Shown here: in pieces, positions 216 through 5,738 of the stretch | Layout of the letters: every line of letters begins with the position of its first letter | Position numbering within the stretch: position 1 is the stretch's first letter | From: Bacteriovoracaceae bacterium | GTDB lineage: Bacteria; Bdellovibrionota; Bacteriovoracia; Bacteriovoracales; Bacteriovoracaceae | Assembly: GCA_947441615.1 (NCBI GenBank) | Contig: CANEUH010000021.1 | Coordinates: 1-64,000 of the forward strand | Length of the DNA: 64,000 nucleotides | Direction of reading: 5' to 3' | Position numbers and translations under genes: made by a program | Notes under the pieces: model-generated | What the model was told of the DNA's origin: nothing | Databases searched by the model: none | The model's input: only the letters and a program-made list of their open reading frames with translations

Positions 216-1892
216 ATGAAAAAGATCTACGCCATCATCCTAAGTTTCGGACTTATTATAGCCCCTGTTCAACACGCGAAGGCAGAAGAAGCCGAGATGA
301 GTTGGGGAGGGGTGACGAATATGGTTCTAGGTCTTTCAACAGGTCTTTTAGGATCAACTGTTTTATTACGTTGTAAACTTGGAGGGGCACAACCATCCCT
401 TTGGGCGTACATGGTGGGGTCTCTTGCTTACATTACAAGTGAATTGATTGGAGCACAAGCCCACAAAGCCCACATAAACGCAATAGCAGTTGACTTAGAA
501 GAGGCCAAAAAGAAACTCCAGGAAGGAGACTCAATCCAAAGATTATCCTTGGAGTTACAATTAAATACACAAAAAGAAAACCTAGCTTTTGTCCAGAAAA
601 GAAAGGGCTGGATGTATGCAGTTGGAGTTCTTTATACTCTCGCCACGACTTTTGCCATCATGGAAGCAGTAGCGGAAGCCGCTACCCTTGGTGTAAAAAA
701 CAGTTTTGCTGGTTGTATTCATAAAGATCTAACTTGGCGTCCTTTAAGAGCGTTACTATTTATGGCTTTCATGCCTACAAGTGCTCTTTCTTCAGGTATT
801 CAAAATGGCTGGGTCCAAGGGGGTATTGTATTAGGAAGTTCACTCATGTTTTTTAAATCCGTAAGTGATTTTATGGATAAAGGTCTTGGACCTTTAATTG
901 ATCATGGTATTCCTCGAAGCATTACATTTGGTTCTTTTACACTGGTTTCTGCGGCTACGATAATTGATTTAGAAATCACTCAAGGAACAATTGAAAAAAA
1001 TATCGAAGATATTACAAAGGTACTTATTAATCAGTATGAACAAAATAAAAAAGATGGAGTTATTACTGGACCTGGCGCCGAAAGAGTTGCATCAGGTCTA
1101 TCAAGGAATAATTCCATAAAAAAATTAGATGGTTATTATGCTTTAAGCTCGGCCCCATGTGTTTCGAATTCTGGTGGAAGCATTTCTATTAATTCGAGTA
1201 ACTGTAAAAAACCGATGAAAATAACTCGTCCCAATTTATCTGGATCCTTTTCAAATAATACTCTTCAGAGTGCAACCGCAATAGGTGCCGATTATGTTAA
1301 CGCATTGGCCGCTGGTGATATGGCGAAAGCTGAGGTCCTAGGTGGGCAACTCTCAAACATGGCCGGACGACTTAAAATAATAAGAGATGATGCAATAAAA
1401 AAATATAATCAAGTTGCAAAAGAAAAAAATAAAAAAATTCTTGATTTTGATAAAGAAGTAAAAGCCTTTAACGAAAGTATGTCGGGAAATTTATCCAAAT
1501 CCCTCGCTTCTCAAGGCATTGATCCTCAAAAATTAAATAAGGCTTCATCTAATTCAGTAAATAAACCTGTTGCTTCTATTTCCGCCCAACCGACTCCGGA
1601 AGTCGCTGCACCTGAAGTGCCAATTGAAAATCTGGCCTCTACTCCTGAGACTCCTGCTGAGGAAGTGGCCCAAACCCCGGCCCCAACTCTTGAAGAGAGC
1701 CTAGAGAACTTCGAATCAAGTGAAAGCGATATTTCTCCTGAAAAACAGGTTTCCATCTTTAAACAGGTCTCCAACCGTTACATCCTAAATTACAACCGGT
1801 TCTTTAGGGAGGAGGAGCCAAATCCTGAAGCAACTCCTGGTGATGGCAAAGCGCCTGTCCCTCAAAGCCCTTTGACGCAACCCATAAAATAG
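216..1892 (+). CDS. Hypothetical membrane protein with N-terminal signal peptide and Pro/Glu-rich C-terminal tail
   Basis: 558 aa ORF; signal-like N-terminus, several hydrophobic segments, low-complexity C-terminus. Confidence 0.75.
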   Translation: MKKIYAIILSFGLIIAPVQHAKAEEAEMSWGGVTNMVLGLSTGLLGSTVLLRCKLGGAQPSLWAYMVGSLAYITSELIGAQAHKAHINAIAVDLEEAKKKLQEGDSIQRLSLELQLNTQKENLAFVQKRKGWMYAVGVLYTLATTFAIMEAVAEAATLGVKNSFAGCIHKDLTWRPLRALLFMAFMPTSALSSGIQNGWVQGGIVLGSSLMFFKSVSDFMDKGLGPLIDHGIPRSITFGSFTLVSAATIIDLEITQGTIEKNIEDITKVLINQYEQNKKDGVITGPGAERVASGLSRNNSIKKLDGYYALSSAPCVSNSGGSISINSSNCKKPMKITRPNLSGSFSNNTLQSATAIGADYVNALAAGDMAKAEVLGGQLSNMAGRLKIIRDDAIKKYNQVAKEKNKKILDFDKEVKAFNESMSGNLSKSLASQGIDPQKLNKASSNSVNKPVASISAQPTPEVAAPEVPIENLASTPETPAEEVAQTPAPTLEESLENFESSESDISPEKQVSIFKQVSNRYILNYNRFFREEEPNPEATPGDGKAPVPQSPLTQPIK

Positions 1893-2039
1893 TCAGGAAT
1901 CCTCGCTGCGAAGTGCCTCTTTTAATCTATTTGCCGCTCTGAGTGAGCTGTGTTACCTTCCATCGGACATTTATTTTAAAGTATTTCATCTCGCTCATGG
2001 CAATTGTGTCCATGGGCTTATTATAATCCAGGAGGAAAT

Positions 2040-2651
2040 ATGATCTACGAAACGGCTTTCGTCGTTCGCCCAGACGCATCTGAAGAAGTTGTGTCTTCCA
2101 TCAAGAACTCCCTTGCTGAAACTTTTAAAGCTTTCGGCGCTGAAGTTCTTGTTACAGATTCTTGGGGAGTGAAGACATTCGCTCAGCCTACAGAATCTGG
2201 TCTTAAGAAAGGTGCTTACCACTATTTCATGTACAAAGGTGCTGGTAACCTTAATGCAGAAATCGAGCGTAAGTTCCGTATTAACGAAAATCTTGTTCGT
2301 CATTTAATTATTAAGCTAGGTGAAGATAAGCACCAAGCTGAAATCGTTAAGGAATACAAGAACCCAAATCACACTCAAGCTGCTCAAATTGATGATGAGT
2401 TTGCTGGTGGCGAAGACAAAGACAAGAAGATGCACTCTAAGCGTAAATCTTGTTGGTTCTCTGCTAAGAAAACTTCCCCTGATTGGAAAGATCCAAAATC
2501 TTATTCATGGCTAGTAAACGAGTTCGGAAAAATTTCTCCGTCTCGTATCACTGGTTTGACTCCGACTTTCCAGCGTCGTGCAAACGAAGCTATTAAGCGT
2601 GGTCGTAACATGCTTCTTATCAGCTACCAATCTAACGAAACTGCTCGTTAA
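2040..2651 (+). CDS. rpsF-rpsR: Fused 30S ribosomal protein S6-S18
   Basis: AGGAGG SD upstream of ATG 2040. N-terminus YETAFVVRPD...FRINENLVRHLI is S6-like; C-terminus KRKSCWFSAKK...FGKISPSRITGLTPTFQRRANEAIKRGRNMLLISY is S18-like. No stop between the two. Confidence 0.9.
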   Translation: MIYETAFVVRPDASEEVVSSIKNSLAETFKAFGAEVLVTDSWGVKTFAQPTESGLKKGAYHYFMYKGAGNLNAEIERKFRINENLVRHLIIKLGEDKHQAEIVKEYKNPNHTQAAQIDDEFAGGEDKDKKMHSKRKSCWFSAKKTSPDWKDPKSYSWLVNEFGKISPSRITGLTPTFQRRANEAIKRGRNMLLISYQSNETAR

Positions 2652-2672: not shown

Positions 2673-3653
2673 ATGAATACTGAAGTCATGCAACAACCAC
2701 AACTTTCAATTGGGAGACTCCTTCTGTTAGGGGCCTCGTCAGTTATTTTGTGTCTTAGTTTCATTATGTCAGTGTTTGCTCCGTTCCCACTTGCCCTTGC
2801 CATTACAATGTATGGAAGAGTGAAGGGGTATCTAGTCGGTATTACGGGACTTATTTTGAGTTTTGTTTTGGCCGGTTCGATTTATGGGGACTACACGCTG
2901 TTTGGATTTTATTTTTGTGTTTTAGTTTTTGGAATTGGGATTGCGGAGATCGTATTAAGAAATCTTTCTCCCGTTAAAGGAATGGTTCTTTTTGGCATCG
3001 GTTTTATTATAACCATTGCAACAAGTTTTATTCTGATGATGAATTCCATGAAAACGACCCCACAACAGTTTATCCTTCAGCAGATTGAGAAAAGTGCGGA
3101 TAAGATTGCCGAACAGAAAAAAGCGGTGGAAATGAGTGGCGATAAAGATGCTATTCAAGTTTTACAACTTTTAGATCGCCCTGATCTTTTAGCGAAGGAA
3201 ATGATGGAATCATTCCCAAGCTATTTCTTTATGGGTGTATTTATTATGCTTTGGTTCAATATGTTTCTTGTTCTTAAGAGTCGAAGACTCTTATTCTCAG
3301 GGACGGATTATTCGTTTGATGAAAAATGTTTGTTAAATTTTAAAGTTCCTTTTGGATTCGTTTTAGTGCTGGCCTTGGGTCTTATCTTGGCCCTTTTCGC
3401 TGAGAAACTTGGAACTTTTCCATTTGAAACTTTGGGTTTTACGATTATCAAATGCCTTGGAATTTTTTATTTCTTTCAAGGTTTTGGTGTTTTTAGTGAC
3501 ATGCTCAATTTCCTTGGTGTCACTGGCTTTTTCAGAACTTTGCTCGTGATGATTACGATCTTCATGGCAAGCTATCTCATTGCAGTCGCTGGTTTATTTG
3601 ATAATTGGTTTGATTTTAGAAAGTATTTTGTAAAACGTAATATTGAAGATTAA
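2673..3653 (+). CDS. Polytopic membrane protein, DUF2232/YybS-like
   Basis: Multiple TM segments; position between rpsR and rplI, as known for yybS-like genes. Confidence 0.65.
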   Translation: MNTEVMQQPQLSIGRLLLLGASSVILCLSFIMSVFAPFPLALAITMYGRVKGYLVGITGLILSFVLAGSIYGDYTLFGFYFCVLVFGIGIAEIVLRNLSPVKGMVLFGIGFIITIATSFILMMNSMKTTPQQFILQQIEKSADKIAEQKKAVEMSGDKDAIQVLQLLDRPDLLAKEMMESFPSYFFMGVFIMLWFNMFLVLKSRRLLFSGTDYSFDEKCLLNFKVPFGFVLVLALGLILALFAEKLGTFPFETLGFTIIKCLGIFYFFQGFGVFSDMLNFLGVTGFFRTLLVMITIFMASYLIAVAGLFDNWFDFRKYFVKRNIED

Positions 3654-3667
3654 TTTAGGAGAACCAT

Positions 3668-4243
3668 ATGAAAGTCATCCTTACTGAAAAAGTTAAGGCT
3701 TTAGGAACAATCGGAGAAATCGTTAACGTTTCTGCCGGATTTGCTCGTAACTTCTTATTCCCGAAAAAACTGGCGATTCTTGCTGATGAAAAGAACTCAA
3801 ACGTTCTTAAAGATAAGCAAAAAGCTCTCGCTAAGAAAATTTCTGCTGAAAAAGATGCAGCTCTTGCTGTTAAGAAAAAGTTAGAAGGTGTTACTGTTGA
3901 ATTGATTAAAAAAGTCGGTGCAAACGGTCGTCTTTTTGGTGCTGTAACTTCTCAAGAAATCGTAAAAGAAGTTGAAAAACTTGGCGTTTCTCTAGAGCGT
4001 CGTCTTCTTCAATTCGATGGATCAATTAAGTCTCTAGGGACTTACGATGTGAAAGCGAAGCTTTTTAATGATGTCGTTGCTAACTTTAAACTTAAAGTTG
4101 CAATCGATGCTGCTATGGCAGAGGAACTTAAAAAGCAACAAGCTGAAGCTCAGAAAAGAAATGCTGAGAAAAAAGCTAAAGCTGAAGCTGCAAAAGCTGC
4201 GGAAGCTGCTGCTGCTGCAGAAGCTGCTGCAAGCGAAGAGTAA
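3668..4243 (+). CDS. rplI: 50S ribosomal protein L9 with Lys/Ala-rich C-terminal extension
   Basis: MKVILTEKVKALGTIGEIVNVSAGFARNFLFPKKLA; AEAQKRNAEKKAKAEAAKAAEAAAAAEAAASEE tail. Confidence 0.95.
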   Translation: MKVILTEKVKALGTIGEIVNVSAGFARNFLFPKKLAILADEKNSNVLKDKQKALAKKISAEKDAALAVKKKLEGVTVELIKKVGANGRLFGAVTSQEIVKEVEKLGVSLERRLLQFDGSIKSLGTYDVKAKLFNDVVANFKLKVAIDAAMAEELKKQQAEAQKRNAEKKAKAEAAKAAEAAAAAEAAASEE

Positions 4244-4391
4244 TTCTTATTTACAGAGGAAGGGAATTAAACCCTTCCTCTGTCTTTCCTGTCCTAACTT
4301 CTTTTGACTCCCAAATATATTCCTACCTCGACATTCCGCACATGGTGTAAAGTCTATCCATATCGATATTTAGATTTTGGAGAAGCTTCTT

Positions 4392-5738
4392 ATGGCACAA
4401 GAGAATCGTAACGAATTACCTCATGACCTTGGGGCCGAGAAAGCATTACTTGGTTGTTTATTAATTGATAACTCAAGTTTCGATGAAATTTCTGACATTA
4501 ATCTAGAGGCAACAGATTTTTATCATCCCCAATATGGAGTGATTTTTCAGTCGATAAAAGATCTCTACATGGAAGGGATGCCGTTTGATATCGTAACGGT
4601 CTCTAGTAAGCTCAATGATCACGGAAAGCTTGAAAGAGTTGGCGGACAAAATGCACTTGTCACTATTTGTGATGAGGTTGGTTCAGCTGCTAACGTTGAA
4701 TATTACGCTCGTCTTATAAAAGAAAAAAGCATGCTCCGTGAAGTTGTGAGAACTGCGACGAGGGTTGCTCAAACGGGGACTGGTTTTACTGGTGACGTTG
4801 CTGATTTTCTTCAAGAAGTTGAGGCAAGCTTTTTTAAATTAACTGCCCAGACGAAAAATAATAAAATGATTCCTCTTAAGCAAGCCCTTTATGAAAACTT
4901 AAAGGAGCTTGAAAAACCTGCTCGCGCGAAAGGCGAGATCATGGGTGTTTCAACGGGCTTTCAGTCCATTGATAGGCAGCTTTTGGGACTTCAACCTGGT
5001 CAGTTAGTTCTTATTGCTGCAAGACCTGGTATGGGGAAAACGGCCCTCGCACTCAACTGGGCCGTGGCCGCAGCTAAACAAACGAATATGGCCGTGGCGG
5101 TATTTTCATACGAGATGATGTACGCGGAACTTTCGATGCGTCTATTAGCATCTGAGGCCTGTATTGATTCTAGAAAGTTAAAGACGAAAGAGTTTAACGA
5201 AATTGATTTAAGATCTATTTCAAACGCTATTCAAAAGCTATCGAACCTCAAATTATACATAAATGACTCGGGTTCAACGAATCTCATGGACATAAGGTCC
5301 TACTGCCGAAAACTAAAGGCCGAACAAGGTCTTGCGATGATTATTGTGGACTACCTACAGATCATGCCGATGCATATTAAAAAGCAAAATCGTGAACAAG
5401 AAATCGCTGAACTCTCGCGTGGCTTTAAAATGCTCGCCAACGAACTTGAAATACCAGTCGTCGCATTATCACAGTTGAACAGAACTGCTGCTTCAAGAAC
5501 TGATCGACGTCCACAGCTCCAAGATCTCAGGGAATCTGGATCTCTTGAGCAAGATGCCAACATCGTATGCCTTATTCATCGCGAAGATTATTATGATCCT
5601 CAAACTCCGAAGAAGGGAATTGCCGAAGTGATCATAGCGAAAAACCGAAACGGCGAACCTGGAACCGTCGAGTTATCTTGGATTGGTTCTCAAACGAAGT
5701 TTGCTGATATTGCCTCTCAAGGTAAGGCCGAAGCGTAA
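4392..5738 (+). CDS. dnaB: Replicative DNA helicase DnaB
   Basis: LPHDLGAEKALLGCLL, Walker A ARPGMGKTALALN, IIVDYLQIM, LSQLNR. Confidence 0.95.
   Translation: MAQENRNELPHDLGAEKALLGCLLIDNSSFDEISDINLEATDFYHPQYGVIFQSIKDLYMEGMPFDIVTVSSKLNDHGKLERVGGQNALVTICDEVGSAANVEYYARLIKEKSMLREVVRTATRVAQTGTGFTGDVADFLQEVEASFFKLTAQTKNNKMIPLKQALYENLKELEKPARAKGEIMGVSTGFQSIDRQLLGLQPGQLVLIAARPGMGKTALALNWAVAAAKQTNMAVAVFSYEMMYAELSMRLLASEACIDSRKLKTKEFNEIDLRSISNAIQKLSNLKLYINDSGSTNLMDIRSYCRKLKAEQGLAMIIVDYLQIMPMHIKKQNREQEIAELSRGFKMLANELEIPVVALSQLNRTAASRTDRRPQLQDLRESGSLEQDANIVCLIHREDYYDPQTPKKGIAEVIIAKNRNGEPGTVELSWIGSQTKFADIASQGKAEA

Follow-up and report, generated by a model that had tools for sequence, protein, structure and literature searches.

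Ribosomal proteins S6 and S18 are direct neighbours in the 30S subunit and heterodimerise before binding 16S rRNA (PMC4647458), and the question raised by the locus considered here is whether in one class of predatory bacteria, the Bacteriovoracia, the two are made, and work, as a single protein. The original prediction, in pointing to their adjacency in the 30S subunit as making a covalent link plausible, agrees on that point with the published heterodimer. In the window, by which is meant the whole stretch of 64,000 nucleotides that was analysed, positions 2040-2651 of the forward strand are a single ORF that runs from ATG to TAA and has 203 codons plus the stop. The features of relevance are these.

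1988..2021, + strand: leader RNA hairpin comprising the box CTCGCT, an 8-bp covarying stem and GGGC, from covariance model R1; a role in S6:S18 binding is proposed
2030..2035, + strand: Shine-Dalgarno sequence AGGAGG of the fused gene, by direct reading, 4 nt 5′ of the ATG at 2040
2040..2651, + strand: fused rpsF-rpsR gene (S6-linker-S18, 203 aa plus stop), from the frame and the Pfam and NCBIfam matches
2040..2354, + strand: S6 domain, about aa 1-105, from the PF01250 match to aa 3-92 and a Foldseek match to solved S6
2355..2438, + strand: charged, probably disordered linker, about aa 106-133, from pLDDT and dN/dS; it contains the in-frame ATG at 2430
2439..2648, + strand: S18 domain, about aa 134-203, from the PF01084 match and the table of zinc ligands
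2673..3653, + strand: downstream gene for a DUF2232 membrane protein (PF09991, E 2.6e-20)
3668..4243, + strand: downstream rplI, ribosomal protein L9 (PF03948 and PF01281)
4377..5738, + strand: downstream dnaB, replicative helicase (PF03796 and PF00772)

Each domain is complete, with Pfam Ribosomal_S6 (PF01250) matching aa 3-92 at E 2.3e-19 and Ribosomal_S18 (PF01084) matching aa 144-194 at E 8e-14, and the NCBIfam models TIGR00166 (S6) and TIGR00165 (S18) both exceed their equivalog cut-offs within the one frame. The S6 part has the whole-domain profile match and the ferredoxin-like fold of a bS6, and the S18 part has the whole-domain match of a bS18; it has no N-terminus of its own, as its frame is continuous with that of S6. 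The host genome, of the family Bacteriovoracaceae, is about 92% complete in 40 contigs and has a single match each to S6 and S18, both in the fused frame. The 73 genomes of the class with completeness of 90% or more and contamination no higher than 5% likewise have exactly one S18 match each. With two complete proteins in one frame and no separate copies in the genome, this is a natural fusion of ribosomal proteins. The frame reading, Pfam and NCBIfam thus bear out the original description of a complete S6, an acidic and lysine-bearing linker and S18 in continuous frame, and the standalone second rpsR that had been named as a potential counter-argument is absent from the host genome at its completeness of about 92%.

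The distribution of the fusion was followed in 129 genomes of the host's family, a search of the class having given no other family. An S18 match is present in 118 of the 129, one per genome, and all of the family genomes that have none are less than 90% complete. The frame that bears S18 is 203-252 aa long in 110 of the 118 genomes, which represent 40 genera, and the fused frame is also found in one- and two-contig assemblies (G104, G043), the single-contig G104 being from the genus of the window. So the survey of relatives that had been put forward as a check finds the fusion in about 110 genomes. When 91 loci of the class were read individually with their frames, 83 were fused, five had separate adjacent genes, two were cut at a contig edge and one had a stop codon between the domains; one of the two cut loci, that of G110, visibly runs on into S6. 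Every fused locus that was read has a strong Shine-Dalgarno motif upstream of its start. In other families of the phylum (about 180 genomes) there is no S18 frame of fused length, the S18 frames there being 74-167 aa, and most of the 20 outgroup loci read are without S6 within about 4.5 kb of S18. The fusion appears to be a real, ancient and class-wide rearrangement of the otherwise highly conserved ribosome, present in nearly all Bacteriovoracia.

The locus with the inter-domain stop (L081 of G072, genus g31, minus strand) has a single in-frame TAA between S6 and S18, with no start codon 3′ of it, and both its zinc ligands (CRSY in S18) and its leader are of the type found with fused genes; the TAA may be a sequencing error, a site of readthrough or a very recent split. 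Elsewhere in the phylum several nearly complete genomes (G170, G149, G173, G211, G223 and others), one of them a single contig, have no S18 match at E 0.001, and their S18 is possibly very divergent or lost.

What lies between the two domains bears most directly on whether one chain is made. In the window the linker has about 28 charged residues, and across the fused loci 30-46 aa separate the domain envelopes, which is, judged by length alone, enough to span the known S6:S18 pair. Differences in its length across the class amount to whole codons, so that the frame is kept. dN/dS was taken from 75 pairs of relatives with identity of 85% or more and comes to 0.080 in S6, 0.058 in the linker and 0.024 in S18; the linker is under strong purifying selection, and the value of 0.058 means that it is translated and constrained. 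Potential initiators in the linker are frequently missing, there being no ATG, GTG or TTG in 35 of the 83 fused loci and no ATG in 46. A covalent S6-S18 fusion is accordingly the best supported reading of the locus, given the class-wide frame, the frame-keeping indels, the selection on the linker and the relatives in which no start for S18 is possible.

It is highly probable that the product is one chain, with a flexible, charged linker of some 30 residues between S6 and S18. The two domains would fold and then pair as the usual S6:S18 heterodimer does, except that both partners belong to the same chain; already assembled in a 1:1 ratio, they would dock on the 16S rRNA platform and remain covalently linked within the 30S subunit. 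At the leader the fused protein would most likely repress its own synthesis. AlphaFold predicts a canonical S6 fold, which Foldseek matches to solved S6 structures (best E 3.7e-9), a disordered linker with pLDDT below 50 over aa 110-142 and, at low confidence (pLDDT about 40-70), two helices for the S18 part. With alignments of 14 and 33 sequences it gave no S6-S18 interface, the model being too weak for one, and among the matches listed no Protein Data Bank chain matches both domains.

The alternative that survives best, though it is rather unlikely, has the frame fused and the ribosome with two chains, a protease cutting within the charged linker once the chain is made or as the ribosome assembles. 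Such a fate would liken the gene to the ubiquitin-ribosomal protein fusions that are cut in eukaryotes, and the linker is predicted to be disordered and is rich in K, D and E, while separate S6 and S18 are usual elsewhere and are kept by five relatives. However, no conserved cleavage motif is evident in the linker, whose length and sequence vary between genera, and its sole constant stretch, E-K-D-[KR]-[KR] beside S18, is also present in the N-terminal extension of S18 encoded by separate genes, so cleavage is not needed to explain it. Much less probable still is that S18 is additionally made alone by internal initiation at a start codon in the linker. The original prediction had considered this for the in-frame ATG at 2430 (M131), which sits precisely where S18 starts and is common to the genus of the window and near relatives. 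It is not otherwise conserved and, as had been anticipated, no Shine-Dalgarno sequence precedes it, whereas the separate rpsR genes of relatives have normal starts. The many linkers devoid of a start codon rule out initiation at 2430 as a conserved feature and, together with its lack of conservation and of a Shine-Dalgarno sequence and with the selection on the linker, make separate translation of S18 unlikely. That the fusion is an artefact of assembly or binning can practically be dismissed: among the named records metagenome-assembled genomes predominate, but the fused frame comes from independent projects with one-contig and two-contig assemblies (G104, G043) among them, its indels preserve frame, its dN/dS is far below 1, and the recurrence of this open frame across 40 genera and about 110 genomes both rejects assembly error and excludes a sequencing error that hides a stop or a frameshift, which had been an initial concern.

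The single-chain reading has a regulatory side. A leader preceding rpsF is bound by the S6:S18 complex in both E. coli and B. subtilis, with repression of translation as the result in E. coli (PMC4647458). Directly 5′ of the fused gene, window positions 1988-2037 comprise a hairpin, CTCGCT...GGGC, followed by a spacer and then CCAGGAGG. There are 64 different 5′ arms among the fused loci, and a box-anchored stem of at least six pairs can be formed by 83% of the leaders that contain the box compared with 7% for shuffled controls. Seventeen loci that align without gaps have 96% pairing in the 8-bp helix, where two-sided changes number 38; as this set was chosen on the pairing of the outer four pairs, the independent evidence comes from the inner four, with 33 two-sided changes against five unpaired cells, and from a model search. 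Covariance model R1, built from this set of 17 loci other than that of the window, has the leader of the window as its best match in the whole host genome (E 2.2e-5), picks out the corresponding position in the majority of the other fused loci and, in 29 aligned matches, has a helix that is 97% paired with 64 two-sided changes. RNAalifold, applied to whole leaders aligned with MAFFT, yielded no structure, which probably reflects unequal stem lengths and was overcome with the anchored gap-free subset and the covariance model. No Rfam family matches the leader of the window, whether at the gathering threshold or at E 10, in an Rfam copy that may lack the published rpsF leader. The CTCG box is absent from all five separate-gene loci, one of which, that of G065, has a similar hairpin without the box. 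Like the published rpsF leaders, the covarying hairpin is a structured RNA just 5′ of rpsF, and by its position, its covariation and that analogy it could be an S6:S18-type autoregulatory site, where the fused protein would most likely repress its own translation. It is a candidate for a new ribosomal protein leader RNA of Bacteriovoracia.

Five genomes of the class, from four genera (G020, G059, G060, G061 and G065; loci L076-L080), have rpsF and rpsR as two adjacent genes, and with such a closely related minority the two proteins need not be joined in this clade. The S18 of these five has a lengthy acidic extension at its N-terminus, and the DKDRR with which that extension finishes corresponds to the last residues of the fused linker. 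Two types of bacterial S18 are known, one that binds zinc (CX2C...CX2H) and one that is zinc-free (PMC11791143), and the distinction coincides with gene arrangement here: the four zinc ligands (CxxC...CxxH) are present in all five separate S18s and in none of the 83 fused ones. All of the latter keep the first cysteine and many also the histidine (CTSH, CKSH, CSTF and so on). S18 of the window does not have the zinc-type motif, since three of its four ligands are lost; C138 is kept, with S, T and F at the other positions. In outgroup families the ligands are lost without fusion, so zinc loss does not require it. The association of fusion with zinc-free S18 in the class is suggestive rather than proven, because the separate-gene genomes are at just two places in the tree and independent events are few.

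The history of the two states can be read in more than one way. In the tree from DnaB, L9 and DUF2232, G020, G059, G060 and G061 group together and G065 is inside the clade of the window, with weak deep support, and the free trees need three changes between fused and separate. A single fused clade is compatible with these three proteins (AU test, p 0.183) and borderline once S6 and S18, without their ligand columns, are added (p 0.0497). One fusion with the separate genes being older, several fusions, or fusion and then fission are each possible. A broader proposal, which we advance tentatively and consider rather doubtful, is that the tether took over the S18-stabilizing role of the metal site, with the zinc ribbon lost after fusion, and that the fused protein acts as a one-component autoregulator on a leader hairpin specific to its lineage. 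On this view fusion, loss of zinc from S18 and the CTCG-box leader would form a single evolutionary package, in place of which a few relatives have unfused genes and S18 of the zinc type and lack the box.

RimK extends the C-terminus of S6 in E. coli and RimI acetylates the N-terminus of S18. In the fused chain S6 runs into the linker, with no free C-terminus of the kind that is the RimK substrate in E. coli, and the two enzymes would find neither end free. The host genome (C2:108475-109329) and most fused genomes nevertheless have a strong RimK-family match, while in the three separate-gene genomes surveyed the matches are weak; the family is broad.

The locus has partial counterparts elsewhere. 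The canonical rpsF-(priB/ssb)-rpsR-rplI operon also encodes S6 ahead of S18, with L9 further downstream and, in many bacteria, a leader before rpsF (PMC4647458), but here there is neither a stop nor a second start between S6 and S18, neither priB nor ssb intervenes, and DUF2232 is between S18 and L9. Two ribosomal proteins in one bacterial gene are also known from the L10-L12 fusion of Candidatus Sulcia muelleri DMIN, which was verified by several sequencing methods (PMC2859065). That case concerns one reduced endosymbiont genome, whereas the present one involves S6 and S18, is class-wide and occurs in ordinary genomes of 2-5 Mb. An extra physical link between S6 and S18, at the cysteine site of S18, is present in human mitoribosomal bS18m-bS6m (PMC11791143), though there it is a [2Fe-2S] cluster to which S18 contributes three ligands and S6 one, and here it is a peptide bond, with S18 ligands lost. 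Zinc-free S18 is common in other bacteria (PMC11791143) and the separate-gene relatives have the zinc type, the difference being that in Bacteriovoracia the zinc-free type goes with the fusion to S6. The eukaryotic ubiquitin-RPS27a/RPL40 fusions also have a ribosomal protein in a fused gene, but these are precursors in which it is joined to a non-ribosomal protein (PMC10296562). A literature search, with most subscription journals outside its reach, found no report of an S6-S18 fusion, and the main text of a 2024 comparative genomics paper on the phylum (PMC11656739) makes no mention of ribosomal proteins or fusions. While the joining of two ribosomal proteins is already known from L10-L12, the S6-S18 fusion is apparently undescribed.

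S6 and S18 are near-universal in bacteria and normally form a heterodimer. Their class-wide fusion means that an assembly step can be hard-wired with function kept. It is a natural experiment on stoichiometry, assembly order, modification of the S6 C-terminus and S18 N-terminus, and metal use by S18, for which the separate-gene relatives are controls. The two features that accompany it, a specific leader and an S18 that has lost its zinc site, are both testable. The whole class can be misread by annotation and marker-gene pipelines that look for rpsF and rpsR as two genes.

Just 5′ of the locus, window positions 216-1892 encode a 558-aa protein with a signal-like N-terminus and a proline- and glutamate-rich C-terminus, for which a Pfam search gave no match. 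A second match to model R1 in the host genome (C1:182012), taken as due to chance, is inside a degenerate second valS-like copy (C1:181345-182724) that has an in-frame TGA and TAG; the intact valS of the genome is at C4:152428-155013.
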